From Maribacter dokdonensis DSW-8 (lineage in GTDB: Bacteria; Bacteroidota; Bacteroidia; Flavobacteriales; Flavobacteriaceae), in assembly GCF_001447995.1 (NCBI RefSeq), contig NZ_LDPE01000005.1, forward strand, positions 1 to 64,000: DNA of 64,000 nucleotides. The letters are read 5' to 3'. The translations under genes were made by a program, and so were the position numbers. The notes below the pieces were generated by a model. The model saw only the letters and a list, made by a program, of their open reading frames with translations, was not told where the DNA came from and ran no database searches. Positions 13,841 through 54,666 of this stretch are shown here, piece by piece (the stretch's first letter is position 1; the number at the start of each line of letters is the position of its first letter).

Positions 13841-13883
13841 TAAATATATGCGCTAACCATTTGATTCACTATGACATATATCA
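13841..13883 (-). promoter_or_regulatory. Crp/Fnr-type promoter of usp (12977)
   Basis: Palindrome TGACATATATCA at 13872-13883 and a minus-strand -7 element TATATTTA at 13841-13848. Their centres are 33 bp apart, the class II activator arrangement. The palindrome overlaps the stop codon of the preceding usp gene. Confidence 0.65.
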
Positions 13884-14729
13884 GTCCTGTACAGGTAGTA
13901 TTAAAAACGGAACTGTAGCATAGATACTTAAATCCATTATTACAGGTTCATGTAAAAAACGTTGAAAAAACCTTCTACGGTGATAAGACATTGCCAGCAT
14001 ATTTATTTCTCTTTCAACTATAAAATCTTGAATAACATTGGCTTTGTCTGCGTAGTTCCAGATTTCATCATAACTATGTGGTATGTGAAGCAAACATTTA
14101 TCCAGTAATTTCTGATTGGAAATTTGCTTTGAAGACATTATTTCTTCTTCATTGATATGAAGAACCGCTACCGAGGCGTCTGTAATGGCTGCAATGTTCA
14201 ATAACATAGATAGCGTACTTTTGGTACATCCTTTTTTATAATCGGTCACAAAGGCAATTTCTTTTATAGGTTTAAATGAAATTTCTTTGGGTATTGCCAA
14301 GATTGGGCACTGTGTAATGGTATTCGCGATCTGTATGGTATTACTGCCCTTAAACAGTTCCTTGGCTCCTGTTTTTCCTTTATTGCCTAAAACGATAAGG
14401 TCAATTTTGTAATCCACCAATGTTTTTGAAATTAAAGTAGACAGACTTCCTTTGCTTGAAATGGTTTTGAATAAATGCTTGTCGTTAGCTGTGTCCAAAA
14501 CAATTTTATGAACGGTTTTAGTCAGATTTTCATTTGAGTTGGCTTCAAGCTTTTTTAAAACTTTCTCACCTGTAAATAATGCATTTTTGGCACTGACCAC
14601 AATGTCATCATATGCATTGACCAGGTAGAAAGTACATTGGTTTTCGGCAAAAATCTGTGTTGCATAAAAAAGGGCATTATACGCTTCATTGGAGAAATCC
14701 GTTGCAACAAGTATATTTTTAATTTTCAT
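13881..14729 (-). CDS. Tandem-domain universal stress protein
   Basis: A 282-residue, two-domain UspA protein starting MKIKNILVATDFS. The first domain carries the nucleotide loop LGNKGKTGAKELFKGSN. The second ends EPVIMDLSIYATVPFLIL and has no loop of that type. It is the second gene of a two-gene unit: the upstream usp gene ends 5 bp before its start. The substrate or partner of these proteins is not known, and roles in ATP binding and stress survival are inferred from the family. It is clearly diverged from its neighbours, so the array is not a recent duplication. Confidence 0.87.
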   Translation of the reverse strand: MKIKNILVATDFSNEAYNALFYATQIFAENQCTFYLVNAYDDIVVSAKNALFTGEKVLKKLEANSNENLTKTVHKIVLDTANDKHLFKTISSKGSLSTLISKTLVDYKIDLIVLGNKGKTGAKELFKGSNTIQIANTITQCPILAIPKEISFKPIKEIAFVTDYKKGCTKSTLSMLLNIAAITDASVAVLHINEEEIMSSKQISNQKLLDKCLLHIPHSYDEIWNYADKANVIQDFIVEREINMLAMSYHRRRFFQRFLHEPVIMDLSIYATVPFLILPVQD

Positions 14730-14734
14730 AGCTT

Positions 14735-15568
14735 TTATTGTGGAATTACCAAGAATGGAACGGTTACATGAAAGCCTATTTTCTTAATGACAGGCTCAAT
14801 GAACAAACGCTCAAAAAAGGTGTGTTTGTTCTGTATCATTACCAATAAATTTATTTTTTGTTTGATCTGAAATTCATTGATGGCAGCTATAACTTCATTA
14901 CTGGGTACTTCATGAAAAAAGCCACTTTCGGATAACACTTTGGCAAGTTGTTCTTTATTTTTTTCTTGTATCGGATTTAATTCATCGCCGGTGTAAACAT
15001 GCATTACATTTACCAGAGAGATATGAGAATGGGTAATTTTCAAAAGTTGTTCCAAACTTTTCTTGTCTAGCCATACCTCAAAATCATTGGGAAACAGTAT
15101 CTGTTCTGGAGCTTCATATTCAAAGCCTGAAGGAATGACCAAAACTGGACATTTTGCATTTTTAATGACATGTACGGTGTTGGTGCCCAATAATATTTCC
15201 TTTGCCCCAGAAGCACCTTGCGTACCCATGACAATGATATCTATTTGTTCTGCCTCTACGGTTCTAGTGATTTCGCTAGAAAGTACATTCAGAGCAGAAT
15301 GGGTGATAAAAGTGTGAAGGGGATTATTAAATTCCTTTTCTAATGTATTTTTTAGTGCTTCAAGATTATCTTGCGAGTTCTGTTGCACAATATCTCCAAG
15401 ACCAATTTGCGCCGGACTCCCCATTAAATATTCTGTATGATATACCGGCGGCATGTAACTGTTCAATAGAAAAAATGTGCATTTAAGATCTTTGTATAGT
15501 GTTAGGGCATACCGTATAGCGGTCAATGCGTTTTCAGAAAAATCTGTAGGTAGTAAAATACGTGTCAT
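14735..15568 (-). CDS. Tandem-domain universal stress protein
   Basis: A 277-residue, two-domain UspA protein starting MTRILLPTDFSENALTA. The nucleotide loop in domain 1 is MGTQGASGAKEILLGTN. The C-terminal domain has the family-specific ending HTFFERLFIEPVIKKIGFHVTVPFLVI shared, with variations, by the other five proteins of the array. It is the first gene of a unit with the usp gene at 13881 and is driven by the Crp/Fnr-type promoter at 15589-15631. A thioredoxin gene diverges on the other side of that site. Confidence 0.88.
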   Translation of the reverse strand: MTRILLPTDFSENALTAIRYALTLYKDLKCTFFLLNSYMPPVYHTEYLMGSPAQIGLGDIVQQNSQDNLEALKNTLEKEFNNPLHTFITHSALNVLSSEITRTVEAEQIDIIVMGTQGASGAKEILLGTNTVHVIKNAKCPVLVIPSGFEYEAPEQILFPNDFEVWLDKKSLEQLLKITHSHISLVNVMHVYTGDELNPIQEKNKEQLAKVLSESGFFHEVPSNEVIAAINEFQIKQKINLLVMIQNKHTFFERLFIEPVIKKIGFHVTVPFLVIPQ

Positions 15569-15588
15569 AATACTATAATTTAATAGAA

Positions 15589-15631
15589 TAAAGTTACCTT
15601 CATTAGGTAGATTATAGTATGATATTCGTCA
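15589..15631 (-). promoter_or_regulatory. Crp/Fnr-type promoter of usp (14735)
   Basis: Palindrome core TGATATTCGTCA at 15620-15631 with a minus-strand -7 element TAACTTTA at 15589-15596, centres 33 bp apart. The same 12-bp core recurs exactly at 50091. The thioredoxin start on the plus strand is equally distant (about 56 bp), but the plus-strand position expected for a -7 element (15655-15662, TATTATAT) is a poor match. Confidence 0.65.
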
Positions 15632-15681
15632 GTATTGAAAAGTATTTAATTGGTTATTATATAGTATAAAAGTAGTATGTA

Positions 15682-15981
15682 ATGAGAAAACTTTTTAAAA
15701 AGACCATAGCCTCGGAAAATCCCACATTGGTGTACTTTTTTGCATCTTGGTGTGTACCCTGTAAACTTATGAGGCCAACAGTGGAGAAAATAGTAGAAGA
15801 AGGGGCAACAGCGATCAATAGTCTTGAAATAGACGTAGAGCTAGAAAAGGCAATTGTAAAAAAATATAAAATTAAGGGTGTACCTACCTTGGTATTGTTC
15901 AAGAACGGTTTACCCATGTGGAGGCATACAGGTGTTATGCCCATTGAGGATATTAGATTGGCAATAAATGAATATCGTTAA
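15682..15981 (+). CDS. Thioredoxin
   Basis: A 99-residue single-domain thioredoxin without signal peptide, so cytoplasmic. The active site is WCVPCK (Cys24, Cys27), with V-P instead of the usual G-P, and the cis-proline loop is KGVPTLVLF. It would reduce disulfides at the expense of thioredoxin reductase, which is not encoded here. The gene lies divergent to one usp unit and convergent with another, inside the usp array, which suggests a link to the same redox or oxygen response. The atypical V at the active site may shift its redox potential. Confidence 0.9.
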   Translation: MRKLFKKTIASENPTLVYFFASWCVPCKLMRPTVEKIVEEGATAINSLEIDVELEKAIVKKYKIKGVPTLVLFKNGLPMWRHTGVMPIEDIRLAINEYR

Positions 15982-17733: not shown

Positions 17734-18579
17734 TTATCGAGAAAGGTTTTGCATGACCAAAAACGGAATGGTTGGTGAAAGACCAATTTCATCAATAGTA
17801 GATTTATACAGCATATCTTCCAGAAAGGAGTGTCTTGAATTTACCATGACCAAAAGGTCCATTTTATGATCGGTAATATAAGTTGAGATGGCTTTGGCTC
17901 TATTTTCTACACCTTTGGTCACAAATGATAACCTGGCGTGAGGTAATGATTCTTCCAAGAATTTTTTATTGTCCAACTGCCTGTGGCTTAAATCAACAAA
18001 ATCAGAAATATATAAACTATGAACTTCAGCCTTAAATTCTCCCGCTAAAATATCCAGTAGCTTCAATTCTCTTCGTTTGTACGGTATCATGTAATTACTG
18101 GGGAAAAGTATTTTTTTAGGTTGGCTATAATCATATTGGTCTGGGACTGCCAAAACAGGGCATTTTACATATTTAAAAACTTGTACGGTATTGCTTCCAT
18201 AAGTTATTTTAGAGCTGGCGGTTTTACCTTTGGTACCCATTATGATAAGATCAATATTTTTTAAATCGGCAAAGTTGTTCAAGGCATCTACCAAAGATTC
18301 AAAAGCGGGTACTGCTTCATATTTATGTAAAGGGTTATGCGTTTTAGTTTGGGTTTCGGTAACAAGTTTGTTCAGTTTATCCTCAGAATCATCAACAATA
18401 ATCTTCTTCTGTTTCTCAAATGTTTCTGCATCTACCTTATGATAAGGTCCGTAAACTTCATCGGCATACGCATGTAAAAAGTAAAAATTTGCGCGTTCGC
18501 ATTTAAACACATTCAATGCATACGAGATGGCGTGATCGGCATTGTTAGAGAAGTCAGTGGGTATGAGAATATTTTTCAT
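17734..18579 (-). CDS. Tandem-domain universal stress protein
   Basis: A 281-residue UspA pair starting MKNILIPTDFSNNADHA. The domain 1 loop is MGTKGKTASSKITYGSN, which keeps the G-x2-G-x9-G-S spacing but replaces the usual second TG by TA. Domain 2 ends HSFLEDMLYKSTIDEIGLSPTIPFLVM. First gene of a three-gene unit under the Crp/Fnr-type promoter at 18600-18642. The uracil phosphoribosyltransferase gene diverges from it. Confidence 0.88.
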   Translation of the reverse strand: MKNILIPTDFSNNADHAISYALNVFKCERANFYFLHAYADEVYGPYHKVDAETFEKQKKIIVDDSEDKLNKLVTETQTKTHNPLHKYEAVPAFESLVDALNNFADLKNIDLIIMGTKGKTASSKITYGSNTVQVFKYVKCPVLAVPDQYDYSQPKKILFPSNYMIPYKRRELKLLDILAGEFKAEVHSLYISDFVDLSHRQLDNKKFLEESLPHARLSFVTKGVENRAKAISTYITDHKMDLLVMVNSRHSFLEDMLYKSTIDEIGLSPTIPFLVMQNLSR

Positions 18580-18599: not shown

Positions 18600-18642
18600 T
18601 AAATGTAAAATCAACAAAGAAGAATACCTATGATAAATATCA
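18600..18642 (-). promoter_or_regulatory. Crp/Fnr-type promoter of three-gene usp unit
   Basis: Perfect FNR-like half-sites TGAT-N4-ATCA (TGATAAATATCA, 18631-18642) with a minus-strand -7 element TACATTTA at 18600-18607, centres 33 bp apart. On the plus strand the position expected for a -7 element is not one, so the site serves usp and not upp. Confidence 0.67.
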
Positions 18643-19404: not shown

Positions 19405-19863
19405 TTAGCACCTACTTCTTAACTTTCCGGTCAGTTCGTTAATATTGACACGAAATACGATCGGGGCTTCTTCGGCATCAATTTTTGCAGAAAACTCACT
19501 TATATATTTTGGTTGCTCACCGTAAATGGTTGCTATTACTTTTTTAACGCCATCAGAAAATTCATGTAGCATATGTTTGGCATCAATTCTAGAGAGCTCC
19601 TCAAAGGTACCCTGAACTAAAACGGACTTCCAATTTGCTATGGAAGCTATTTCATCAACTCCCAAGCAAACCTTGGTATTCTTTCGCATTTCTTGAATTT
19701 TGTGTCCCTCGCTAGAGTAGCTGGTAATGGAATGCGTGTCAGGATCGTAGTAAAATGTTATGGGCACAATGAATGGGCATCCTCCTGATAAGTATGAAAG
19801 CCTGCCAATGTAGTTTTGTCCTAATAACGCCTTACATTCTTCTTGATTCATATTTCTTCTCAT
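19405..19863 (-). CDS. Pyridoxamine 5'-phosphate oxidase-like FMN-binding protein
   Basis: A 152-residue split-barrel flavoprotein of the PNPOx-like superfamily (Pyridox_ox_2 type). The sequence opens MRRNMNQEECKALLGQNYIGRLSYLSGGCPFIVPITFYYD and keeps the family's GRLsy and P-I-x-F-x-Y-D pattern; GHKIQEMRKNTKVCLGVDE and the WKSVLVQGTFEEL strand follow. Close relatives bind FMN or F420/heme and act as reductases or stress proteins, so it need not make pyridoxal phosphate. I use the ATG at 19863; a TTG two codons upstream is possible. It has a Crp/Fnr-type promoter, placing it with the usp genes. Confidence 0.82.
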   Translation of the reverse strand: MRRNMNQEECKALLGQNYIGRLSYLSGGCPFIVPITFYYDPDTHSITSYSSEGHKIQEMRKNTKVCLGVDEIASIANWKSVLVQGTFEELSRIDAKHMLHEFSDGVKKVIATIYGEQPKYISEFSAKIDAEEAPIVFRVNINELTGKLRSRC

Positions 19864-19888
19864 GACCAATTGTTGTTTGTTGATACAA

Positions 19889-19931
19889 TAAAAGTATACA
19901 TCATTGATTTAGTGGCACATGATATTGGTCA
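19889..19931 (-). promoter_or_regulatory. Crp/Fnr-type promoter of PNPOx-like gene
   Basis: Palindrome TGATATTGGTCA at 19920-19931 and minus-strand -7 element TACTTTTA at 19889-19896, centres 33 bp apart. The core combines the TGAT arm of the usp sites with the GGTCA arm seen at 52574. Confidence 0.63.
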
Positions 19932-43143: not shown

Positions 43144-43557
43144 TTAATGCGGTAGTTTGTCCTTTAGCAAACCGTAAACGAAAGTACCTAGAATAGCACT
43201 TGCAATTACGATTAAGATAGAAGAGTAACCAGCACCTACCAAAACATACATAGGACCAGGACAAGCACCTGCCAACGCCCATCCTAAACCGAATATGATA
43301 CCACCGATCAAATAATTGGTCACACCTTTTCTTTTGGGATGCAAGTTCATTTCTTTTCCTCCAATGGCTTTGATGTTATTTCTTTTTATAATCTGAACGC
43401 CAACTACCCCTAGAACAAGTGCAGAGCCAATAATGCCATACATATGGAAAGAGCCAAACTGAAACATTTCATAAATACGAAACCACGAAGCAGCTTCAGA
43501 TTTATACATGATGATGCCGAAAAATATACCTATGGTCAAATAACTTAAATACTTCAT
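43144..43557 (-). CDS. YeeE/YedE family transporter subunit (PmpB-like)
   Basis: A 137-residue membrane protein with about four helices and the conserved GWALAGACPGPMYVLVGAG, whose Cys is typical of YeeE/YedE proteins. These move thiosulfate or other sulfur species across the inner membrane. It lies 1 bp after the longer YeeE/YedE gene; the two together resemble PmpA/PmpB pairs that accompany persulfide dioxygenases in sulfur-responsive operons. It is read from the promoter at 44137-44180. Confidence 0.85.
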   Translation of the reverse strand: MKYLSYLTIGIFFGIIMYKSEAASWFRIYEMFQFGSFHMYGIIGSALVLGVVGVQIIKRNNIKAIGGKEMNLHPKRKGVTNYLIGGIIFGLGWALAGACPGPMYVLVGAGYSSILIVIASAILGTFVYGLLKDKLPH

Positions 43558-43558
43558 G

Positions 43559-44136: not shown

Positions 44137-44180
44137 CAAAGAAATAGAATTTAAAACACTTGCTTGGTAACCAATGTTAC
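44137..44180 (-). promoter_or_regulatory. Crp/Fnr-type promoter of yeeE pair
   Basis: Perfect 5-bp arms GTAAC-N4-GTTAC (GTAACCAATGTTAC, 44167-44180). The sequence TTTCTTTG at 44137-44144, read on the minus strand, matches the -7 element at five of six positions, centres 33 bp apart. The site lies in the 60-bp gap after cydB. Confidence 0.62.
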
Positions 44181-44185
44181 ACAAG

Positions 44186-45205
44186 TTAGCGCTCTAAGAG
44201 TTTGATCAATTTAAAAGATTTGAGTAAATGGAAAAGCCCCGGAATAATTAAGACACCGCCTACAAGTAAAGAAATGCCCAAAACGTTCATAACACTATCA
44301 GGAACAGGTTGATCATAAATGCTGATGCTACCTGTGGTAGTGAAAAGTATTTTTGGAAAATGAGTAATAGTAGCCGCAAATAGAATAAAGAATATTTGAA
44401 TGCCTGCCAATGCCCTAGAAATGATTCTTCTACCGGATTTAATACTTTTCCATAGCGGAAACAATAAAATGCCGGAAACTATAATGGCAGAGATAGACCA
44501 GATGTTACTAATGAAATCTACAACAAAAGCGATACCTGACAAATACCCATATGCCAATGTTATAAAACCCAAAGAAACTACTACTATAGTTGCTATAGAG
44601 GCTTTTCTCATGTACATGGATTTACTGGTGTCATCTACCTCGCCAATTAGAAATACCGATGCCAAGAAAGCACAAAGGGCTGCATAAAAGAATCCCGTTA
44701 AAATGGAAAAAATATTGAACCAAGAGTGTACATAAACTTCCAAAAAACTATGGTTTTCCATTTGTGATGGATTAATAATGTCTCCACTGACCACGCCGCC
44801 CATGGTAAGGCCTAAGAATATTGGGGTAACTAGACTAGAGGTTTTAAACATCCAATCATATAAAATTTGAGAACTGTCTTTATAGGCATCATAATATCGA
44901 AATACAAAGGCAACACCTCTAAGGGTTATACCCAATAACACCAGGGTCAATGGAATATGTAGTGCGAGCACTAAAATGTTGTAGTAATGGGGGAAGGCAA
45001 TCCATAGAATCACGATTAAAATAATAATCCAAATATGGTTGGCCTCCCAAACCGGACCCATTACTTGGTAGACGGTCTTCTTATTGATAGCTTGGTTTTC
45101 TTTAGAGGAGAACAACTCAATGATTCCCGCGCCAAAATCTGCTCCTGCCAGTAAAACGTAGAGCAATAAAGAAATGGCAAGAAAGGCTAGTACAACGTAG
45201 ATCAT
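44186..45205 (-). CDS. cydB: Cytochrome bd ubiquinol oxidase subunit II
   Basis: A 339-residue integral membrane protein, subunit II of the high-affinity quinol oxidase. It begins MIYVVLAFLAISLLLYVLLAGADFGAG, the typical CydB N-terminus with the DFG motif, and continues with AFPHYYNILVLALHIPL and FLGLTMGGVVSG. It overlaps cydA by 4 bp (ATGA), so the two are translationally coupled. It is part of the low-oxygen regulon through the promoter at 46541-46584. Confidence 0.94.
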   Translation of the reverse strand: MIYVVLAFLAISLLLYVLLAGADFGAGIIELFSSKENQAINKKTVYQVMGPVWEANHIWIIILIVILWIAFPHYYNILVLALHIPLTLVLLGITLRGVAFVFRYYDAYKDSSQILYDWMFKTSSLVTPIFLGLTMGGVVSGDIINPSQMENHSFLEVYVHSWFNIFSILTGFFYAALCAFLASVFLIGEVDDTSKSMYMRKASIATIVVVSLGFITLAYGYLSGIAFVVDFISNIWSISAIIVSGILLFPLWKSIKSGRRIISRALAGIQIFFILFAATITHFPKILFTTTGSISIYDQPVPDSVMNVLGISLLVGGVLIIPGLFHLLKSFKLIKLLER

Positions 45206-46515
45206 GCTTCATTGGTTTTAACACTGTTCAAGAATTTAATTTGCCTTGCCATTAACCATGTTACCGCAATGGTCAATATGGTATATACAGCTATATAAGT
45301 GTACAAACTAAATACAATACCTGGCATTGGGGTAACGGCATCTTTGGTTTTCATAATGTTGTGTATGATCCAAGGTTGCCTACCAACTTCGGTAACGATC
45401 CAACCAGCTTCAAGGGCAACAAAGCCCAATGGAGCTAAAAGAGCAAACAACAACCAGAATTTTGGCATATTGAACCAAGATTTCTTTTTGTACTTGGCTA
45501 CAAAAAATAGCATTCCCGCTATCATTAAAAGTGTGCCTAGTCCCACCATGGTCTGAAAAGCGTAATGGACCATGGCAACATTAGGTTGCTCATCTTTAGG
45601 GAAATCATTTAATCCTTTTACTTCGGCATTAAAATCACCAAAAGCAAGAAAGGATAGGGCATTGGGAATTTCCAGCTTGTACTTGACCTCTTGAGTTTCG
45701 TTATTCACAATTCCGCCAATATAGAGCGGAGCTCCTTTTTTGGTTTCGTAATGCGCTTCCATAGCAGCCAACTTAACGGGCTGCCTTTCTGCAATATCCT
45801 TGGCAGAAAGATCTCCGCTTAAGGGCTGTAGAATAGCAGCTATGGCGGCAAATGTTATGGCTATTTTAAATGCTTTCTTATGAAGCTCAACATTACGTTT
45901 TTTATAAACTTGGTAAGCATGAATACCTGCTACGGCAAAGCCTGTAGCCGTGAAAGCGGCTAAGGTCATATGCAAAGCTTGGGTAAACCATGCAGGATTA
46001 AATAGTGCTTTTACCGGATTTATATTTAAGAATTCGCCATTAATGTAATCAAAACCGGAAGGTGCATTCATCCAACCATTGGCGGAAACTACTAAAATAC
46101 CGGACATTACTCCAGATATACCTACGATGATACCGGTGAACCAGTGAAAAGTTTCAGGAATTTTTTTCCATCCGTAAAGGTAAAATCCTAAAGCAACGGC
46201 CTCCACAAAAAATGCTGCACCCTCTAATGAAAATGGCATGCCAATAATAGGACCTGCATGTTTCATGAATTCAGGCCACAAGAGACCTAGTTCAAAGGAA
46301 AGTGCAGTACCGGATACGGCACCTGTAACAAAGAAAATGGCAACACCTTTTTGCCATGATTTTGTGAGTGTAAGGTAAATGGGATTGCGTGTATTCAACC
46401 ATTTTTTGTGGGATACCACCATAAAAAATGGCATAACCATACCAATGCAGGCGAACACAATATGGAAAATAAGGGTAAACGCCATTTGTAGTCTTGCAGC
46501 ATCTATATTTTCCAT
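45202..46515 (-). CDS. cydA: Cytochrome bd ubiquinol oxidase subunit I
   Basis: A 437-residue subunit I holding the hemes of cytochrome bd; it oxidises quinol and reduces oxygen at low tension without proton pumping. Visible markers are the N-terminal heme-ligand region with His18 (FHIVFACIGMVMP), the SLEGAAFFVEA helix and EVGRQPWIIH near the C-terminus. The quinol-loop is of the short type. The gene has a Crp/Fnr-type promoter. The bd oxidase complements the cbb3 oxidase encoded at the right end of the window. Confidence 0.95.
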   Translation of the reverse strand: MENIDAARLQMAFTLIFHIVFACIGMVMPFFMVVSHKKWLNTRNPIYLTLTKSWQKGVAIFFVTGAVSGTALSFELGLLWPEFMKHAGPIIGMPFSLEGAAFFVEAVALGFYLYGWKKIPETFHWFTGIIVGISGVMSGILVVSANGWMNAPSGFDYINGEFLNINPVKALFNPAWFTQALHMTLAAFTATGFAVAGIHAYQVYKKRNVELHKKAFKIAITFAAIAAILQPLSGDLSAKDIAERQPVKLAAMEAHYETKKGAPLYIGGIVNNETQEVKYKLEIPNALSFLAFGDFNAEVKGLNDFPKDEQPNVAMVHYAFQTMVGLGTLLMIAGMLFFVAKYKKKSWFNMPKFWLLFALLAPLGFVALEAGWIVTEVGRQPWIIHNIMKTKDAVTPMPGIVFSLYTYIAVYTILTIAVTWLMARQIKFLNSVKTNEA

Positions 46516-46540: not shown

Positions 46541-46584
46541 TAAAGATACGAAACGGTGTGTTTTTCTTACGTTACAAAGGTTAC
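46541..46584 (-). promoter_or_regulatory. Crp/Fnr-type promoter of cydAB
   Basis: GTTACAAAGGTTAC at 46571-46584, one mismatch from the GTAAC-N4-GTTAC palindrome, with minus-strand -7 element TATCTTTA at 46541-46548, centres 33 bp apart. Confidence 0.62.
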
Positions 46585-46627: not shown

Positions 46628-47155
46628 TTATGGCATTAAGATATAACCATCTAATTGATAATTGGCCAGCACCATCATTGCAGAAAGACCAAGTTGTGTA
46701 TTTGGGTTAAGATCTTCGGCTCCAATACCTCTAGAAGCTGTTGCTTGAGCGCAAACATAGAATTGTACTCCGTAGTCCTTTAAAAGCTGTATAACCTCTG
46801 CATTAGGGTTTTCTTTCTCATATTTCGCTTTATATTTTTCGTCGTTCAAAGCCGTGAATGTTGCACCACCATGTATGGCAGCAACAATATTTATATTGTC
46901 AGCGGAAACACCGCCCGAGCCTAACATGTTTATTAAACGGGCAATTTTAAAATAACCAATATTGGTACCATGCATTTCACGGTCATCCTTAAGGTCAAAA
47001 ACGATGTTATATTTTTTAGAAGCATCGGGTTGAACTGCTACGTCCTTGAATTCTTTAATTTTTCCGTAACCGTTTATGATCGGGGTCGTCCATTCCTGAG
47101 CGGTAGTAAGTTGTATTGCCATAATTGTTATTAATAAAAGAAGCGCTTTTTTCAT
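46628..47155 (-). CDS. Exported DsrE-family protein
   Basis: A 175-residue periplasmic protein (signal MKKALLLLITIMAIQLTTAQ) with the DsrE fold: YNIVFDLKDD, NIVAAIHGGATF and VQFYVCAQATASRGI, in which the single Cys is at the position used by DsrE-type sulfurtransferases to carry a persulfide. Family members bind or pass sulfane sulfur. It lies between cydA and the divergent tsdA-like gene. The Crp/Fnr-type site at 47260 is 111 bp upstream, with a poor match at the expected -7 position, so control of this gene is less certain. Confidence 0.82.
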   Translation of the reverse strand: MKKALLLLITIMAIQLTTAQEWTTPIINGYGKIKEFKDVAVQPDASKKYNIVFDLKDDREMHGTNIGYFKIARLINMLGSGGVSADNINIVAAIHGGATFTALNDEKYKAKYEKENPNAEVIQLLKDYGVQFYVCAQATASRGIGAEDLNPNTQLGLSAMMVLANYQLDGYILMP

Positions 47156-47259: not shown

Positions 47260-47303
47260 GTAACTAGGGTTACTGTCATAATGGTGCAATAATTATAGAT
47301 TCG
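47260..47303 (+). promoter_or_regulatory. Crp/Fnr-type promoter of tsdA-like gene
   Basis: Perfect arms in GTAACTAGGGTTAC (47260-47273) and -7 element TAGATTCG at 47296-47303 (five of six matches), centres 33 bp apart. Confidence 0.6.
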
Positions 47304-47333: not shown

Positions 47334-48368
47334 ATGGGTGATTTACGAATTTTGGCGAAACAACTTTTTAGGTTGTTTACAATTGTGTTTGTATTAATAG
47401 GTCTAATTTTTATTTGGCTTTTTACCTATGAACCCAATACTTCCGCTGGAGTTTCAAATGAAGGTGGAAAGGAAGAAGAAGTTGTTTGGCAACCTAAAAA
47501 TCCCATTTCTGAAATAGAAAACATGCCTTTTGAAGTCAAAAAGGGATATTACCTAATATCGGAGACTTCAAGGTTTATGGGTCCTGGGGCAGCAAAAACC
47601 GAAGATAGGTATAGCGGTAACAACTTGGCATGTTCCAATTGCCACTTACAAAAAGGAGCCCAGGCAGGTTCAGGTTCTTGGGTGGGAATTTTAGAACGTT
47701 TTCCCCAATTTGGTGGTAGGGGCAATAAAATTGGAACTATAGAAGACCGTATTAATGGTTGTATGGAACGCAGTATGAACGGTAGAATGCTTCCGCCGGA
47801 TTCAGATAAACTTGTGGCCATTGTTGCCTATATGAATTGGTTGAGCGAAGGCTTACCTGAAGATAGAAAGGCCGAGTTTAAAGGGTATCCAAAAATTAAG
47901 ATTCCAAATGAAAAGGTAGATTTAGCAAAAGGTAAGCAAGTGTATACCAAAGAGTGTGTTATTTGCCATGGTGAAAATGGAGCAGGGGTTTTAAGTCTAG
48001 AGGATAACAATAGTTATACGTACCCACCATTGTGGGGAGAAGATAGTTTTAATGATGGAGCGGGTATGCACAGGGTAATTACGTCGGCGGAATTTATAAA
48101 GAGTAACATGCCCTATGTACAAGCCACTTGGGATAATCCTAAGCTAACCGATGAAGAAGCATACCATGTGGCGGGCTATATTAACAGCTTTAGCAGACCA
48201 CATAAACTAAATACCGAAAACGATTATCCCGATAAAAAGCTAAAACCGGTATCTACACCCTACGGTCCTTGGGTAGATGATTTTACGCCCGAGCAGCATA
48301 AATATGGACCGTTTCCACCTATAATGGACTTCTACAAGGAGAAATACGGAATTACTAAAACAAAGTAG
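47334..48368 (+). CDS. Diheme cytochrome c, TsdA-like thiosulfate dehydrogenase
   Basis: A 344-residue diheme cytochrome c anchored by an N-terminal helix (about 14-32). Heme sites are CSNCH (Cys100-His104) and CVICH (Cys208-His212). The stretch LACSNCHLQKG ... RFPQF ... DRINGCMERSMNGRMLP matches thiosulfate dehydrogenases (TsdA). In TsdA the Cys of RINGC is the distal ligand of heme 1; here it is Cys143. TsdA interconverts thiosulfate and tetrathionate. The homology strongly suggests this activity, but the direction cannot be inferred. A porin gene follows 4 bp later. Confidence 0.82.
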   Translation: MGDLRILAKQLFRLFTIVFVLIGLIFIWLFTYEPNTSAGVSNEGGKEEEVVWQPKNPISEIENMPFEVKKGYYLISETSRFMGPGAAKTEDRYSGNNLACSNCHLQKGAQAGSGSWVGILERFPQFGGRGNKIGTIEDRINGCMERSMNGRMLPPDSDKLVAIVAYMNWLSEGLPEDRKAEFKGYPKIKIPNEKVDLAKGKQVYTKECVICHGENGAGVLSLEDNNSYTYPPLWGEDSFNDGAGMHRVITSAEFIKSNMPYVQATWDNPKLTDEEAYHVAGYINSFSRPHKLNTENDYPDKKLKPVSTPYGPWVDDFTPEQHKYGPFPPIMDFYKEKYGITKTK

Positions 48369-48372: not shown

Positions 48373-49710
48373 ATGCGATTTGTATATCTGTTCATTATTT
48401 GTTTGCCTATATTTTCTATTGCTCAGGATTCTGTAGCAGTAAAGAAAATAGGAACCCTTTCAGGGCAATGGCGTACGTATTATATGATGACATCAAATAA
48501 GGGAGAGTTAAAAGACTTTAATGCTTTGGCAACCGGAGGTAAACTAAAGTATCAGTATAATTTATTGGAAAATTTAGAAATAGGCGCGGCATTGTATAAT
48601 TCTACGAATTTAGGGTTACAAGATTTAACCATACCAGATCCCGCTACTGGCAGAATCAGTAGGTACGAAGAAGGGTTGTTCGATAGATTAGATTTGAATA
48701 ACGATGCTGTTTTCTTACTAGGGGAATTATATGGGAAATATACATGGAACCATCATTCATTTGCATTGGGGCGAATGAAAATCAATACTCCTTTGATCAA
48801 CCCCGAAGATGGCAGAATGATACCTACTTTGGCACAAGGTTTTTGGTATCGGTTTTATGCGGAAAAGGCAAAGTTTCAATTGGGCGTTTTAAATAAAATA
48901 GCACCGCGGTCAACCGGAGAGTTTTTTGATATAGGGGAAAGTATTGGTACCTATCCCGTAGGTAGAAATATTTATGGTAATACATCGGGGTATGGTGGTA
49001 ATACTGAATCTGACTATGTATTAATGGCAAATGCTGAATTTAAGCTGTCAAAAGAATTTAGTGTAAATGTTTGGAACCAATATGTGGATAACGTCTTTAA
49101 TGCTGTCTATATAAAACCTAAATTTAAAGTATCTAAAACTATTAGTTTAGAAGGGGAGTGGCTGCATCAAAATAAGGTAGGTGATGGTGGTAATACTATA
49201 GATTCTCTCAGGTATTACAATCAAAATTCATCGGACATATTAGGGTTAAAAATTGGGTATAAAAGTAAAGTAGGTTTACTATCATTAGGTTACGATAGAA
49301 TATTGCCGGACGGTCAATTTTTATCACCTAGAGAGTGGGGTAGGGAAGACTTGCTCAGTTTTCAGAAAAGAGAACGTAGCGAAGGCTCAGCTGATAATCA
49401 TGCACTAGTGTTCAACTATGTAAATACTTCTAATGTAATTGATGAAGAATTAAATCTAAAAACTATTTTAAGCATAGGAAAACATTGGAAGGGTAGCGTA
49501 ACCGATGCTACTTTGAACAAATACGCATTACCAGATTACACCCATATTAATTTAGATGTTTTCTTTACGATTAAAAAGTTAAAACATTTACAACCAGAAC
49601 TATTGATTACTTCTAAAATTGCAAATGGGAATATTCCGAACAACCCTAACCTATATTTCAATAAGGTTGATATGTTTCATTTAGATATAATTTTCAATTA
49701 CAATTTTTAA
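48373..49710 (+). CDS. Outer-membrane porin, OprD-like
   Basis: A 445-residue outer-membrane beta-barrel with a signal peptide (about 1-17, ending SIAQ). It opens GTLSGQWRTYYMMTSNKGELKDFNALATGGKLKYQYN, and the features LNNDAVFLLGELYGKYTWN and FALGRMKINTPL are like those of OprD-type porins. The C-terminus ends in an aromatic strand (IIFNYNF). It is 4 bp downstream of the tsdA-like gene and co-transcribed, so it may admit thiosulfate, tetrathionate or a related anion. That substrate is inferred from position only. Confidence 0.8.
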   Translation: MRFVYLFIICLPIFSIAQDSVAVKKIGTLSGQWRTYYMMTSNKGELKDFNALATGGKLKYQYNLLENLEIGAALYNSTNLGLQDLTIPDPATGRISRYEEGLFDRLDLNNDAVFLLGELYGKYTWNHHSFALGRMKINTPLINPEDGRMIPTLAQGFWYRFYAEKAKFQLGVLNKIAPRSTGEFFDIGESIGTYPVGRNIYGNTSGYGGNTESDYVLMANAEFKLSKEFSVNVWNQYVDNVFNAVYIKPKFKVSKTISLEGEWLHQNKVGDGGNTIDSLRYYNQNSSDILGLKIGYKSKVGLLSLGYDRILPDGQFLSPREWGREDLLSFQKRERSEGSADNHALVFNYVNTSNVIDEELNLKTILSIGKHWKGSVTDATLNKYALPDYTHINLDVFFTIKKLKHLQPELLITSKIANGNIPNNPNLYFNKVDMFHLDIIFNYNF

Positions 49711-49752: not shown

Positions 49753-49959
49753 CTACTTTCTCATTTTACAAGTATTTATCCCTAACAATGAATATAGCGG
49801 GCAAAAGCTTATAAAAGTAGTTAAGATTAAAACACCGGCCACTGCTGCCATTATATAGCCTAAAGTACCGGTAACAGTATCAGTATAGAACGTAGTCAAC
49901 AATGCTACTGCGATAAAAAGTCTGATGAAACGGTCTGTGCTTCCCATATTTTTTTTCAT
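49753..49959 (-). CDS. DUF2892 family membrane protein
   Basis: A 68-residue protein with two membrane helices: MKKNMGSTDRFIRLFIAVALL, GTLGYIMAAVAGVLILTTF and ISFCPLYSLLGINTC. The CP-x4-LG pattern is typical of DUF2892/YgaP-type proteins, which in other genomes are linked to rhodaneses and sulfur transfer. The family often appears with sulfur or redox genes. A Crp/Fnr-type site at 50091-50102 lies 137 bp upstream, which would leave an unusually long leader. Confidence 0.82.
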   Translation of the reverse strand: MKKNMGSTDRFIRLFIAVALLTTFYTDTVTGTLGYIMAAVAGVLILTTFISFCPLYSLLGINTCKMRK

Positions 49960-50059: not shown

Positions 50060-50102
50060 CCAAAGTAGTATTAATTGAGCACCTTTGGTATGATATTCGT
50101 CA
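50060..50102 (-). promoter_or_regulatory. Possible Crp/Fnr-type promoter of DUF2892 gene
   Basis: Palindrome core TGATATTCGTCA at 50091-50102, the same 12 bases as at 15620, with TACTTTGG on the minus strand at 50060-50067 (five of six matches), centres 33 bp apart. The leader to the ATG at 49959 would be about 97 bases. Confidence 0.45.
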
Positions 50103-50136: not shown

Positions 50137-50180
50137 GTAACTTTGGTTACAGCACCATTAATATGAATAAGGTATTTTTG
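50137..50180 (+). promoter_or_regulatory. Crp/Fnr-type promoter of fatty acid hydroxylase gene
   Basis: Perfect arms in GTAACTTTGGTTAC (50137-50150) and a perfect -7 element TATTTTTG (50173-50180), centres 33 bp apart. A second palindrome lies 47 bp upstream at 50091. Confidence 0.68.
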
Positions 50181-50197: not shown

Positions 50198-51094
50198 ATG
50201 GAAGCATATGTAGAGGCCTTTTTAAATGCGATTACCGGAACGTTAAGTTGGACATGGAAATCTATCATTTTCAACGTTCCATGGTATCTAAACTATTTTT
50301 GGGGATTGATTTTGATTTCACTTATCGTCTGGATATTGGAAATTGTTTTTCCATGGAGAAAAAATCAAGGTGTTTTTAGAAAGGATTTTTGGTTAGATGG
50401 CTTTTATATGTTTTTCAACTTCTTTTTGTTTGCCATTGCCATAAGTGGAATTTACAAGATACTGGGGGTTTTCTTTGAAGATATAGGTATTAAAGCCAAT
50501 AGTTTAGCACTTATAGATATCTCTAATTGGCCTATGTGGGGGCAATTATTACTGTTTTTTATCGTATTGGATTTTGTACAATGGTTTACCCATGTTTTGC
50601 TTCATAAATATGCATTTCTATGGAATTTTCACCAAGTGCACCATAGTGTAAAGGAAATGGGCTTTGCGGCTCATTTGCGCTATCATTGGATGGAGAATAT
50701 ATTCTATAAACCTTTAAAAACATTTGGGGTTATGATTCTTGGCGGTTTTGAACCGGAACAAGCTTATATTGTTCATTTTGCCGCTATAGCCATAGGTCAT
50801 TTTAATCACTCTAATATTAAGATTACTTGGGGACCTTTAAAATATGTTTTAAACAATCCGGTAATGCATTTATACCATCATGCTTATGAACTTCCTCCAG
50901 GAACATATGGTGTAAATTTTGGAATTAGTTTAAGCCTTTGGGATTATATATTTAAAACCAATTACATACCCGAAGATAGTGGGAATGTAAGACTAGGTTA
51001 TCCGGGAGATGACGATTTGCCCAAGAGCTTTTTTGGGCAACTGGTACACGGTTTTGCACCCAAAAAGAAAAGTCGGCCTACTAAGACCGACTAA
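50198..51094 (+). CDS. Sterol desaturase/fatty acid hydroxylase family protein
   Basis: A 298-residue di-iron membrane enzyme that uses oxygen to hydroxylate or desaturate a lipid. The His boxes are HVLLHKYAFLWNFHQVHHS, HFNHSN and HLYHHAYE, spanning the four-helix membrane core. The lipid substrate is unknown; family members act on fatty acids, sterols, carotenoids or sphingolipids. The gene has a strong Crp/Fnr-type promoter, odd for an oxygen-consuming enzyme unless it serves as an oxygen-limited lipid adjustment. It ends in a bidirectional terminator. Confidence 0.85.
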   Translation: MEAYVEAFLNAITGTLSWTWKSIIFNVPWYLNYFWGLILISLIVWILEIVFPWRKNQGVFRKDFWLDGFYMFFNFFLFAIAISGIYKILGVFFEDIGIKANSLALIDISNWPMWGQLLLFFIVLDFVQWFTHVLLHKYAFLWNFHQVHHSVKEMGFAAHLRYHWMENIFYKPLKTFGVMILGGFEPEQAYIVHFAAIAIGHFNHSNIKITWGPLKYVLNNPVMHLYHHAYELPPGTYGVNFGISLSLWDYIFKTNYIPEDSGNVRLGYPGDDDLPKSFFGQLVHGFAPKKKSRPTKTD

Positions 51095-51107: not shown

Positions 51108-52517
51108 TTATAATGTAGTCGGGCAAACAAATTCCGTTACGGGAACACCAGCTTCTTTTATTGCCGCAAATCCACCTTTGACATCAATGAAGTTATGTAT
51201 ACCTCTACTTTTTAAGATAGACGATGCTATCATACTTCTATAGCCACCTGCACAATGTAGGTAGAACAATTTATTGTCTGGAAACTTAGCTAAATGGTCA
51301 TTAATGTAATCTAGCGGCGTATTAACAGCATCTATGATGTGTTCAGATAAAAATTCAGATTCTTTTCTTACATCAAAAACTGGAGGTTTCTCGGTCTCAA
51401 TTGCTTTTTTAAGTCCGTCTGCATTAACCTGACTTACGGTGTCATACTCCATTGATGCATTTTTCCAAGCATCAAAACCTCCATCTAGGTATCCTAAGGT
51501 ACCATCAAAGCCAACTCTAGATAATCTGGTGACCGCTTCTTTTTCCATACCTATAGGAGCAACTAATAAAATGGGTTGTTCTACATCGGCAATCAGGGCG
51601 CCCACCCAAGGTGCAAAACTTCCGTTCAATCCAATGAATATGGATCGTGGAACATGTCCTTTGGCAAAATCATCTTGATGGCGTACATCTAAAACAATGG
51701 CACCGGTTTCATTTGCTGCCGCCTCAAAAGCAGCTGGTGATAAAGCTCTTGTACCACGTTCCAAAACTTTTTTAACGTCCTCATAACCTTCTTTGTTCAT
51801 TTTAACGTTCAATGGAAAATATTGCGGTGGAGGTAACAATCCGTCGATTACCTCATCAATAAACTCTTCTTTGGTCATATCCGCGCGCAAAGCATAGTTC
51901 ATCTTTTTCTGGTTGCCTAGCGTGTCTACCGTTTCTTTCATCATGTTTTTTCCGCACGCAGAACCGGCTCCATGGGCAGGATATACAATTACGTCATCTG
52001 CCAGTGGCATTATTTTTTCTCTTAAACTGTCATACAAAAAACCTGCAAGATCACGCTCTGTAATTTCTCCCATTTTCTGTGCTAAATCTGGTCTGCCTAC
52101 ATCACCCAAAAACAAGGTGTCACCACTAAAAATGGCATGGTCTTTACCTTGTTCATCTTTTAGTAAATATGTTGTACTTTCCATTGTATGCCCAGGTGTG
52201 TGTAGTGCAATAATGGTAACATTGCCTAATGTGAACGATTCATTATCCTTAGCTATATAGGCATCAAACGACGGATTGGCCTGCGGACCATATATAATTT
52301 TTGCGCCGGTTTCTTTAGCTAACGTTACATGACCACTCACAAAATCTGCATGAAAATGCGTCTCAAAAATATATTTGATCTTGGCATTATTGGAATTTGC
52401 CTTTTTAATGTAAGGTTGTACCTCCCGTAACGGGTCAATTATAGCCACTTCACCATTACTTTCAATGTAATAGGCGCCTTGTGCGAGACAGCCTGTATAT
52501 ATTTGTTCTACTTTCAT
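51108..52517 (-). CDS. Persulfide dioxygenase-rhodanese fusion (CstB-like)
   Basis: A 469-residue enzyme for removing sulfane sulfur. The N-terminal metallo-beta-lactamase domain (1-245) has HFHAD (His54, His56, Asp58), His63 and GDTLFLGDVGRPDL, typical of ETHE1-type persulfide dioxygenases. Two rhodanese domains follow. The first has Ala-Pro where the active-site Cys should be (LVAPIGMEKE). The second keeps the loop HCAGGYRS with its catalytic Cys. This order is that of CstB, which oxidises persulfides and makes thiosulfate. The start is the ATG at 52517; the longer frame from 52544 lies within the -7 element. Confidence 0.9.
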   Translation of the reverse strand: MKVEQIYTGCLAQGAYYIESNGEVAIIDPLREVQPYIKKANSNNAKIKYIFETHFHADFVSGHVTLAKETGAKIIYGPQANPSFDAYIAKDNESFTLGNVTIIALHTPGHTMESTTYLLKDEQGKDHAIFSGDTLFLGDVGRPDLAQKMGEITERDLAGFLYDSLREKIMPLADDVIVYPAHGAGSACGKNMMKETVDTLGNQKKMNYALRADMTKEEFIDEVIDGLLPPPQYFPLNVKMNKEGYEDVKKVLERGTRALSPAAFEAAANETGAIVLDVRHQDDFAKGHVPRSIFIGLNGSFAPWVGALIADVEQPILLVAPIGMEKEAVTRLSRVGFDGTLGYLDGGFDAWKNASMEYDTVSQVNADGLKKAIETEKPPVFDVRKESEFLSEHIIDAVNTPLDYINDHLAKFPDNKLFYLHCAGGYRSMIASSILKSRGIHNFIDVKGGFAAIKEAGVPVTEFVCPTTL

Positions 52518-52543: not shown

Positions 52544-52587
52544 CAAAATTATCTTATGTAATGCAGGTGTACAGTGACATTGGTCAC
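52544..52587 (-). promoter_or_regulatory. Crp/Fnr-type promoter of persulfide dioxygenase gene
   Basis: Palindrome GTGACATTGGTCAC (52574-52587) and perfect minus-strand -7 element TAATTTTG (52544-52551), centres 33 bp apart. The arms are intermediate between the TGA-type and GTAAC-type sites. Confidence 0.66.
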
Positions 52588-52599
52588 ATAAGAAAAATT

Positions 52600-53400
52600 T
52601 TACCTAAAGAATTCCATGTAGAATATAAAAGCGGCCATTATTAATATGAAATAGCCAAAACCTTTCTTTAGTTTGTTACCGTCAATGAAATTGCTGAGGT
52701 AACTACCTATGAAAATGCCTATCAATGAAAGAAAGGTGAAAAGCGCTAAAAATTGCCAATCGATAGGCATAGTCATTGCATCACCTAATAAGAAACCCAA
52801 CAAAGATTTTATAGCGATGATGATCAAAGAAGTGCCAACGGCAACCTTCATTTCAACGTTTGCTAAAATGACCAATGCCGGTATAATTAAAAATCCGCCT
52901 CCTGCGCCAATAAGTCCCGTAATACTGCCCACCAATAGACCTTCCAACAAAATTAGAGGGTAGTTATAGGTAACCGTTCCGGTATTCTCAATACAATTTT
53001 CTTTTTTTAGCATTGAGTAAGCTGCTGGGATCATTAAAATAGCAAATAGCCCAAACATGGCCATTCTACGTGTAAATTGAAAACTATCTATTTCGAATAA
53101 AATGTTAGGTAATGCCGGTACAACATAATGTCTTACCAAGGTTACACCTATAATGGCCGGAATACCAAAAACGATAGCGGTACGCCAATCTACGTAACCT
53201 TTTAAATGTTGTTTATAACCACCTACCAGTGCGCTTGCACCAACTATAAAGAGAGAATACGCAGTTGCAGCTTTTTCATTAATTGAAAAAAGATAGGCTA
53301 AAACGGGCACGGCAAGAATGGAGCCTCCCCCGCCAATAAGACCTAAAGATATACCAATAATTAGGGCGCTGATGTATCCTAGAATATGCAATACTTCCAT
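52600..53400 (-). CDS. TSUP family sulfur-compound transporter (TauE/SafE)
   Basis: A 266-residue membrane protein with about seven helices and the two TSUP signatures IGISLGLIGGGGSILAVPVL and GLLVGSITGLIGAGGGFLIIPAL. Family members export sulfite or other sulfur oxyanions, and one commonly sits beside CstB-type enzymes to remove the sulfite formed. It is separated from the persulfide dioxygenase by its own Crp/Fnr-type promoter and the dioxygenase by another, so the two are probably separate but co-regulated. Confidence 0.9.
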   Translation of the reverse strand: MEVLHILGYISALIIGISLGLIGGGGSILAVPVLAYLFSINEKAATAYSLFIVGASALVGGYKQHLKGYVDWRTAIVFGIPAIIGVTLVRHYVVPALPNILFEIDSFQFTRRMAMFGLFAILMIPAAYSMLKKENCIENTGTVTYNYPLILLEGLLVGSITGLIGAGGGFLIIPALVILANVEMKVAVGTSLIIIAIKSLLGFLLGDAMTMPIDWQFLALFTFLSLIGIFIGSYLSNFIDGNKLKKGFGYFILIMAAFIFYMEFFR

Positions 53401-53418
53401 GTAATTTATTTAGTAGCA

Positions 53419-53462
53419 CAAAAGTAGAGCGGTGTGGAAACCTGTGCAGTAACAAAGGTTAC
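53419..53462 (-). promoter_or_regulatory. Crp/Fnr-type promoter of TSUP gene
   Basis: Perfect arms in GTAACAAAGGTTAC (53449-53462) and perfect minus-strand -7 element TACTTTTG (53419-53426), centres 33 bp apart. Confidence 0.68.
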
Positions 53463-53469
53463 AGAGGTA

Positions 53470-54102
53470 TTATAAATCTAAAATTTTTAAATAGTTACGG
53501 TGTAGTTTTATTTTTCCCATTTCTTCCAACTTTTTTAAAAGTCTAGAAATTACGACCCTTGAACTATGTAGGTCATATGCAATTTCTTGATGGGTACTAT
53601 GAATAATATCATCTTTTGTTACTCTGGCTTTTTCCTTTAAATAACCAATTAAACGTTCGTCCATTTTTTGGAACGCAATATTATCCAAGGTATTTAAAAG
53701 CTCATTTAATCTCTCATGGTAACTATTGAATACAAAATTTCGCCAAGACTTATATTTGGTAGTCCATTCTTCCATTTTTTGAATAGGCACCACGATCAGT
53801 TTGGTATCCGTTTCGGCTATGGCCCTAATTTCACTTTTATTATCTCCCATGCAGCAAGCCATGGTCATGGAACAGGTATCACCTTTTTCCAGATAGTATA
53901 GCAGTAGTTCATCGCCATCTTCATCTTCTCTTAAAATCTTAATAACACCAGAAATTAGTAAAGGCATACCCCTTACAAAGTCGCCGATCTCCATGAGTTT
54001 GAAACCTTCCGGCACTTCTTTGAACGTACCTACTTGAACTATTTCATTAATAAGCTCATTTTCGAATGTTTTACCATATGCTGCGGTCAAGTCTTGGATC
54101 AT
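53470..54102 (-). CDS. Crp/Fnr-family transcriptional regulator
   Basis: A 210-residue regulator with an N-terminal cyclic-nucleotide-binding-type beta-roll (about 1-120), a dimerisation helix and a C-terminal winged helix (150-210). It lacks the N-terminal Cys cluster of Fnr, so it is not an obvious iron-sulfur oxygen sensor, but has Cys77, Cys83 and Cys84 in GDTCSMTMACCMGD. The recognition helix SSRVVISRLLKKLE has Arg182 and Arg187 where E. coli Crp has Arg180 and Arg185, but Val183 where Crp has Glu181. It lies 7 bp after the DUF983 gene, whose promoter carries one of the local palindromes, so it is likely to regulate itself and the surrounding genes. Confidence 0.93.
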   Translation of the reverse strand: MIQDLTAAYGKTFENELINEIVQVGTFKEVPEGFKLMEIGDFVRGMPLLISGVIKILREDEDGDELLLYYLEKGDTCSMTMACCMGDNKSEIRAIAETDTKLIVVPIQKMEEWTTKYKSWRNFVFNSYHERLNELLNTLDNIAFQKMDERLIGYLKEKARVTKDDIIHSTHQEIAYDLHSSRVVISRLLKKLEEMGKIKLHRNYLKILDL

Positions 54103-54109
54103 GTTCGTG

Positions 54110-54499
54110 TTAATTGATATTCTTAGCTATTTTCTTATCATAGGTAAAAAACATGTTTGCCCATATGGATTTTGAAACCGCCGCGATCCATGGCATTGTC
54201 AGTACTAGGACAACCACAATACTTATGAATAGGCTTACCAATGAAAGTTGTAAATTAAAAATCAAGGACAAAACATATGTTGCAACGGCAACGGCAATAC
54301 CAACGGCATACGAAACATACATAGATCCGGTATAGAAACTGGGTTCTATGCTGTATTTTAACTTACACTTAGGGCAATGGTCTTTTACCTTGTTGAAATT
54401 ACTTAATTTATAGGGATTAGCTTCAAAGAATTCCCCTTTATGGCATCTAGGGCATTTTAAAAAGAGGATACTGTACAATTTAGAGCCTTTTAAAAACAT
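54110..54499 (-). CDS. DUF983 family membrane protein
   Basis: A 129-residue protein with an N-terminal zinc-ribbon-like part (CPRCHKGEFF and CPKCKLKYS, two CxxC pairs) and two membrane helices (about 65-85 and 90-110). DUF983 genes are common in alpha-proteobacteria and Bacteroidota near respiratory genes; the function is unknown. It is the first gene of a two-gene unit with the Crp/Fnr regulator and carries that unit's promoter. Confidence 0.85.
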   Translation of the reverse strand: MFLKGSKLYSILFLKCPRCHKGEFFEANPYKLSNFNKVKDHCPKCKLKYSIEPSFYTGSMYVSYAVGIAVAVATYVLSLIFNLQLSLVSLFISIVVVLVLTMPWIAAVSKSIWANMFFTYDKKIAKNIN

Positions 54500-54516
54500 A
54501 GAAGTACTTTATATAT

Positions 54517-54560
54517 CAAAACTATGATAACTGAATATGCTATACGGTAACATTGGTTAC
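54517..54560 (-). promoter_or_regulatory. Crp/Fnr-type promoter of DUF983-crp unit
   Basis: Perfect arms in GTAACATTGGTTAC (54547-54560) and perfect minus-strand -7 element TAGTTTTG (54517-54524), centres 33 bp apart. It implies autoregulation of the regulator gene at 53470. Confidence 0.7.
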
Positions 54561-54623
54561 ATAGCATGTTTTAAACTGTTTTAATGTTCATGAAAAGTTA
54601 GGGGTATTACTTTTCTATTGAAC

Positions 54624-54666
54624 TGATATAAATCATATTTTTTGGTTTTTATGACGTGTATGTTTG
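54624..54666 (+). promoter_or_regulatory. Crp/Fnr-type promoter of hemN
   Basis: FNR-like TGAT-N4-ATCA (TGATATAAATCA, 54624-54635) and perfect -7 element TATGTTTG (54659-54666), centres 33 bp apart. The ATG at 54685 is 18 bp downstream of the element. Confidence 0.7.

Follow-up and report, generated by a model that had tools for sequence, protein, structure and literature searches.

A 64,000-nucleotide stretch of the Maribacter dokdonensis DSW-8 genome (contig C5:1-64000, hereafter the window; the genome comprises 4.43 Mb in 16 contigs) carries a series of Crp/Fnr-type palindromes, followed at a constant distance by a TAnnTTTG promoter box, in front of usp, cydAB, hemN and sulfur-related genes. 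A preliminary description had assigned thirteen of these palindromes to a single regulon. All thirteen were found, and all lie in gaps between genes, but the sites split into two motif classes that differ in their genomic distribution and likely partner proteins. Type A (GTAAC-N4-GTTAC) is present at 44167, 46571 (with one mismatch), 47260, 50137, 53449 and 54547, and type B (TGAY-N4-RTCA) at 12717, 13872, 15620, 18631, 19920, 50091 and 54624, while the site at 52574 (GTGAC-N4-GTCAC) matches both codes alike. The sites, their geometry and conservation, the co-occurrence of motif and regulator, and the target families reported here are computed results. Gene models are longest-open-reading-frame calls, by which 93% of the window is coding; boxes are scored by matches out of six to TAnnTTTG, and distances run from palindrome centre to box centre.

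Sites and genes in the window

The type A sites are clustered around genes of sulfur metabolism, and the target families named for them and for type B were borne out by Pfam or NCBIfam matches. On the minus strand, the site at 44167-44180 (box 44137-44144, 5/6) precedes two YeeE/DUF6691 sulfur-transport genes (43144-44125; PF04143, PF20398), and that at 46571-46584 (box 46541-46548, 5/6) precedes cydAB, encoding cytochrome bd oxidase (44186-46515; PF01654, PF02322). On the plus strand, the site at 47260-47273 (box 47296-47303, 5/6) serves a SoxA/TsdA-like cytochrome c gene (47334-48368; PF21342, PF00034), which is followed by an OprD-like porin gene (48373-49710, plus strand; PF03573). The same palindrome has only a 4/6 box on the minus strand, toward a DsrE gene at 46628-47155, and may be bidirectional. 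A further plus-strand site at 50137-50150 (box 50173-50180, 6/6), kept in 6/6 Maribacter relatives aligned, lies upstream of a fatty acid hydroxylase family gene (50198-51094; PF04116). The remaining members are on the minus strand. The hybrid site at 52574-52587 (box 52544-52551, 6/6) precedes a persulfide dioxygenase-like gene (51108-52517), whose product combines a metallo-beta-lactamase domain with two rhodanese domains (PF00753, PF00581); its best solved match is 3tp9, ETHE1 was also matched, and an ATG start was taken, a longer GTG start running into the box. The site at 53449-53462 (box 53419-53426, 6/6) precedes a TauE/SafE sulfite exporter family gene (52600-53400; PF01925). Finally, the site at 54547-54560 (box 54517-54524, 6/6), kept in the six Maribacter relatives aligned (one curtailed by its gene model), precedes a DUF983 gene (54110-54499; PF06170) paired with a gene for a Crp-family regulator of 210 aa (53473-54102; Pfam cNMP_binding and HTH_Crp_2, and alignments). 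This protein, hereafter the window Crp, is the proposed type A regulator.

Type B sites lie on both sides of this cluster. To its left, all on the minus strand, are those for a usp gene at 12977-13816 (site 13872-13883, box 13841-13848), for usp genes at 14735-15568 and 13881-14729 (site 15620-15631, box 15589-15596), for usp genes from 17734-18579 onward (site 18631-18642, box 18600-18607) and for a PNPOx-like gene at 19405-19869 (site 19920-19931, box 19889-19896), each with a 5/6 box. One more in this group was overlooked in the preliminary description: TGACCATTGTCA at 12717-12728, with a 5/6 box (12686-12693) at 33 bp, upstream of gene 12024-12662. Pfam searches gave no family for this gene, and family searches gave none for gene 15657-15944; Rfam and ARAGORN scans of the window returned no matches. 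At the right, the plus-strand site at 54624-54635 (box 54659-54666, 6/6), also kept in 6/6 Maribacter relatives aligned, precedes hemN, encoding oxygen-independent coproporphyrinogen III oxidase (ATG 54685; 54685-56046, plus strand; TIGR00538, 424 bits over a cut-off of 325). A 5/6 box on its minus strand had likewise been overlooked. The right end of the window holds fixO, fixP, fixG and fixH, with an Fnr-like gene approximately 4 kb further on. Between a usp gene and the fix genes lies a gene for a vanadium-haloperoxidase/PAP2-like protein (56991-58445; VCPO_2nd, DUF6851).

Promoter geometry and distribution of the two motifs

A distance of exactly 33 bp from palindrome to box had been claimed for the sites, and this was largely upheld: 12/13 show a box of at least 5/6 when read on the target's strand, and five of these boxes are 6/6. 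The claim did not hold for 50091 toward the fatty acid hydroxylase gene, where the box at 33 scores 2/6 and a 6/6 box is found at 45 instead. On the minus strand, the same site (50091-50102) has a 5/6 box at 50060-50067 directed toward a small gene, unnamed in that description, for a 68-aa protein with a YgaP-like transmembrane domain (49753-49959, minus strand; PF11127, 76.2 bits); the leader of approximately 96 nt toward this gene is presumably the 'long leader' noted earlier. The palindrome is kept in 6/6 Maribacter relatives aligned, the box less so. The box itself reads TACTTTGG, and that of one relative resembles TAnnTTGY, the SM5 variant of Flavobacterium psychrophilum (PMC9723704).

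The constant spacing is strong independent evidence of function. Among 4937 random intergenic positions in the window having a target gene, 77 (1.6%) show a 5/6 box at 33, and by arithmetic the chance of twelve in twelve is at most of the order of 1e-16, with both directions and approximately 60 spacings taken into account. The description of the sites as Crp/Fnr-type, with an informative constant geometry, is supported. In E. coli, -41.5 is the class II position of CRP and FNR, where a two-fold site stands at a fixed distance from the -10/-7 element; the arrangement here differs in having TAnnTTTG for TATAAT and two half-site codes side by side. Start mapping in F. psychrophilum places TAnnTTTG at -12 to -5 (PMC9723704). 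If the box is placed likewise its centre is at -8.5, and a palindrome 33 bp upstream is therefore centred at -41.5, in agreement with the class II activator position proposed earlier. The 33-bp spacing is ordinary textbook class II geometry transferred to the Bacteroidota box, and in itself is not new.

The two motifs are differently distributed over the genome. Perfect GTAACN4GTTAC occurs in 10 places; the five inside the window all fall between genes and carry a box at 33, while the five outside it all lie within coding sequence and none has a box at 33 on either strand. By comparison, TGAYATNNRTCA occurs in 57 distinct places, with a box at 33 toward the downstream gene in 12/19 intergenic occurrences and, on either strand, in 1/38 within coding sequence. 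These whole-genome counts are the test by which the preliminary description would have been refuted, had site plus spacing been as frequent in coding regions as upstream of genes. Type A is nearly confined to the cluster in the window and type B is scattered over the genome, where OsmC, hemN, pyridine nucleotide-disulphide oxidoreductase and usp genes and the Fnr-like gene have type B-like promoters in front of them, and ferritin-like, DnaJ-domain, L-PSP-family and cation ATPase genes have weaker ones. A composite type B search allowing two mismatches was noisy and was set aside (it returned 45 matches and the reversed pattern 30; of the 45, 24 are within 300 bp upstream of a gene, 3 in other gaps and 18 coding), although 8/9 of its matches with 0-1 mismatch are upstream of genes.

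Relaxing the type A pattern to GTRACN4GTYAC gave 22 places in the genome against 24 for the control. Six of these are in the cluster, five are the coding occurrences already mentioned, one is at a ferritin-like gene and ten are copies of one 14-mer, GTAACAAAGGTCAC (on contigs C3, C7, C9 and C14 near position 277, and at other contig ends). At least eight copies lie within approximately 1 kb of a contig end, and these are probably one repeated element. The ferritin-like gene (Dps-like by eye) is preceded at C1:736276-736319 by GTAACATTTGTCAC, which fits both codes and has a 5/6 box at 33; it is the sole type A-like promoter seen outside the cluster.

Conservation was examined in 149 genomes of the family; at 1e-40, the window Crp finds a homologue in 120 of them and none in 29. 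In the 120, TGTAACN4GTTACA was counted 154 times and the reversed control 40 times; in the 29, the counts were 6 and 11. Whole-genome counts of TGATATNNRTCA in the 29 genomes (809 against 388 for the control) could be explained by coding composition and were set aside. A set of 80 related loci from 29 named genera (counted from titles) was then used, of which intergenic DNA makes up 164,747 of 1,504,249 bases (11%). The perfect type A palindromes in these loci number 223 between genes and 7 within coding sequence; five of the seven also have a box at 33, and some may be gene-model errors. A box of at least 5/6 lies at 33 in 207/264 type A site-target pairs, drawn from 72/80 loci, with the next-best spacing reaching 9. 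Perfect 6/6 boxes stand in fixed helical phase to the site, with 111 at 33 and no more than one at any of the other spacings between 12 and 69. Type B palindromes in the same loci number 47 intergenic and 15 coding, with 38/70 pairs at 33. Across the 207 aligned type A promoters, in which the five half-site bases are fixed by the search pattern itself, the promoter-side flank is no longer dyad-symmetric but favours T-G at -34/-33 (T 61%, G 60%), which may be read as the remnant of a -33 element.

For each target family of these promoters, the number of loci in which the gene has site and box is given over the number in which the gene occurs, with family names taken from one representative each; the fractions are lower bounds because operon-internal genes need no site of their own. 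They are 58/69 for persulfide dioxygenase (PDO)-rhodanese, 34/41 for TauE, 17/79 for the Crp itself, 16/19 for DUF983, 16/27 for YeeE, 14/14 for 1-Cys peroxiredoxin, 11/15 for YgaP-like, 11/14 for SQR-like (the SQR matches human SQOR at 1e-96), 10/25 for SulP and 9/24 for fatty acid hydroxylase. Smaller numbers were obtained for cydA (6/12), a Tll0287-like cytochrome (6/32), a molybdopterin oxidoreductase of the sulfite-oxidase kind (6/11), an outer-membrane efflux protein (6/6), TsdA-like (3/5), DsrE (1/2) and HemN (1/6). Across genera, the type A targets are a sulfide/persulfide oxidation set.

Recognition helices and candidate sensor cysteines

Five Crp-family proteins lie above the HTH_Crp_2 cut-off in the genome; a sixth match, below it, appears to be an Lrp-type protein. 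Their recognition helices differ: SSRVVISR in the window Crp, ATESLIR in both the Fnr-like protein on contig C5 and a receiver-Crp protein on contig C7, TTEEQVIR on C2 and TSRQTVNN on C4, with SRVV found in the window Crp alone. In CRP, the outer G of the half-site is read by Arg180. When GTAAC is placed in dyad register this outer G is kept, and the G read by Glu181/Arg185 becomes A. In HcpR2, the motif GTAACnnnnGTTAC has been coupled to loss of Glu181 (Rodionov et al., PMC1274295). The corresponding residues of the window Crp are R180-V181-S184-R185, and the combination of Arg180 with Val181 therefore fits type A, following the HcpR2 precedent (PMC1274295). HcpR2 shares the identical consensus and the lost Glu181, but the window Crp has Val in place of Pro (or Ser/Gln) at 181 and its targets are sulfur-oxidation genes, not hcp. 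A PF03063 search gave no hcp in the M. dokdonensis genome, the control search matching 5/14 named genomes. Membership of the HcpR group was rejected on the missing hcp and the lack of Pro at position 181.

The proteins on contigs C5 and C7, with Glu and without Arg180, fit type B. The Fnr-like protein (C5:68200-68889, outside the window) has the FNR-type recognition residues Glu at 181 and Arg at 185, and its own promoter has a type B-like site. Its best hit among curated models is that of FNR, PRK11161, but at 110.5 bits this is under the cut-off of 228. An N-terminal CxxC and a cysteine that by eye matches C122 of FNR are present; a fourth cysteine is not evident. The comparison with E. coli-type FNR is thus partial: the TGA...TCA core, the E181/R185-type helix and the neighbouring cytochrome oxidase and hemN genes are alike, whereas the curated-model score falls short and the cysteine set looks incomplete by eye. 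The Fnr-like protein is matched at 1e-40 in 92/149 family genomes. The receiver-Crp gene (C7:114000-125000, gene 5572-6624, minus strand) encodes a protein that joins a receiver domain of the response-regulator kind to a Crp domain, and directly downstream is a usp gene that has a type B-like site; the protein is possibly a phosphorelay input into the type B regulon.

The identity of the window Crp reaches 99-100% with unnamed entries and 95% with named Maribacter proteins, which puts the organism in Maribacter or close to it. The protein has three conserved cysteines. None of C77, C83 and C84 varies across 54 aligned rows, and the pattern TC-x5-CC is present in 80/80 loci (two rows by eye). 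SRVV is found in 78/80 loci (found by pattern), the others having one SREV and one ARVV. From 51 matches with no more than 52% identity, 20 distant homologues (45-52%) were picked; among these, C77 is present in 20/20 and the C83/C84 pair in 15/20, and 19/20 adjoin yeeE, TauE or PDO. Of the five without the pair, four have only yeeE genes as neighbours within the stretch covered. One homologue with the pair likewise neighbours only yeeE genes, and the fifth pair-less member lies in a full sulfur cluster, so that the link between pair and neighbourhood is loose. The closest solved relative, the uncharacterised Crp/Fnr regulator PDB 3dv8 (2e-20), has cysteines at the residues aligned with C77 and C83; it differs from the window Crp in having Arg-Glu at 180/181 and no C84. 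The predicted Crp fold has a mean predicted local distance difference test (pLDDT) score of 80.9, with the cysteine loop (residues 80-85) below 50, and no cysteine geometry is claimed from it.

Proposed regulons and their signals

Taken together, these data suggest, with a probability of about 0.78, that two Crp/Fnr-family activators with different half-site codes share one class II geometry, an Fnr-type activator reading type B and a sulfide/persulfide-related one reading type A. Both regulons would have a site centred at -41.5 and a TAnnTTTG box at -12 to -5. Type B would be an Fnr-type low-oxygen/stress regulon, with the Fnr-like protein of C5:68200-68889 as the best candidate regulator and the receiver-Crp of contig C7 as a second. 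Type A would be a small, nearly local regulon of the window Crp, autoregulated through DUF983-crp, which may turn on the oxidation and export of sulfide, persulfide and thiosulfate. Its genes here would be those for YeeE, the TsdA-like cytochrome, PDO-rhodanese, TauE and a sulfide-tolerant cytochrome bd, with SQR, SulP, sulfite oxidase and peroxiredoxin added in relatives. The window Crp would accordingly be expected to bind the type A sites and activate from them.

Low oxygen fits type B, and type A points to sulfide or persulfide. In Acinetobacter, a sigma-54 activator and an ArsR-type repressor govern the response of the same genes to sulfide/persulfide, in which CydAB, itself refractory to sulfide, is raised as well (PMC7315123). 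From the sulfur target set and this response, sulfide or persulfide is therefore the likeliest type A signal, and may be read through C77, C83 and C84. The more specific proposal, that Flavobacteriaceae have a dedicated Crp/Fnr persulfide sensor which carries this cysteine triad in the loop that binds cyclic AMP in CRP and activates GTAAC-N4-GTTAC promoters from the class II position, is regarded as evenly balanced. CstR is among the known persulfide-responsive regulators. FisR, SqrR/BigR and CstR (PMC7315123, PMC9774590, PMC12423496) similarly control PDO, SQR, TauE, YeeE and, by response, CydAB, and sense through cysteines; their folds are sigma-54 Fis-type, ArsR and CsoR, however, and not Crp/Fnr. 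The window Crp shares with them a regulon of sulfide/persulfide oxidation genes and conserved candidate sensor cysteines, and its resemblance would be one of function only.

Several observations weigh against these readings. The hybrid site at 52574 and the site at the Dps-like gene fit both codes, and cross-talk between the regulons is possible. Among the 20 distant loci, only 12 have a type A site (with at most one mismatch) and a box at 33, four having a palindrome without a box at 33 and four no palindrome, and five of the distant homologues, including the one in a full sulfur cluster, are without C83/C84. SQR was not found in the M. dokdonensis genome in a search with one relative's SQR as query and no positive control. 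The 80 loci are not independent, six being Maribacter at approximately 90% identity, and the patterns used to find them themselves included C77 and SRVV, so that conservation is unbiased for C83/C84 only. At 1e-40, the search for the Fnr-like protein found none in G075, a genome of the same genus, which weakens the assignment of type B to the Fnr-like protein; type B could therefore belong to either this protein or the receiver-Crp.

An alternative, that the window Crp reads type A but responds to low oxygen, nitric oxide or general redox state, is unlikely but is the strongest of the competitors. Cysteines may serve in iron-sulfur ligation, heme ligation or disulfide chemistry, and cydAB is among the targets; HcpR, which shares GTAACnnnnGTTAC, is moreover a nitrogen-oxide-related regulator (PMC1274295). 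However, across genera the sites stand before genes for sulfur enzymes and transporters rather than before respiratory or nitrosative genes, nearly all distant homologues adjoin yeeE, TauE or PDO, and hcp is missing from the genome. Several of the known persulfide regulators act as repressors, CstR among them and also SqrR and BigR (PMC9774590), and the window Crp might be a repressor released on persulfidation, its dyad at -41.5 blocking polymerase; this appears improbable given a box placed almost exclusively at 33, which a repressor does not need, and the flanking T-G at -34/-33, as though part of a -33 element were retained. Least probable of all is a single Crp/Fnr protein that reads both palindromes in response to low oxygen, which was rejected on site distribution, helices and motif-regulator co-occurrence: both classes do share the 33-bp geometry, 52574 and C1:736276 do fit both codes, and cydAB and hemN are classical oxygen-regulated genes, but perfect functional type A sites are found only in the cluster while type B is scattered, the Crp proteins of the genome differ clearly in recognition helix, the excess of type A palindromes is seen only in genomes with a window-type Crp, and 223 exact type A copies against 47 intergenic exact type B copies indicate a distinct, preferred word.

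For the two-activator interpretation, the part most worth following is the thiol-bearing Crp together with the type A regulon, the 33-bp spacing being ordinary yet decisive evidence. No description of such a sulfide/persulfide regulator in Bacteroidota was found among open-licence papers, which is weak evidence of novelty. Homologues of the window Crp are present in 120 of the 149 family genomes sampled, and if the proposal is true, a regulator, operator, promoter rule and regulon for sulfide handling would be named for a large marine and soil group, and Crp/Fnr would join the ArsR, CsoR and sigma-54 Fis-type regulators as one more protein family recruited to the same sulfur module. The rule itself, a Crp/Fnr dyad followed after 33 bp by TAnnTTTG, is a simple tool for finding other Crp/Fnr regulons in Bacteroidota.

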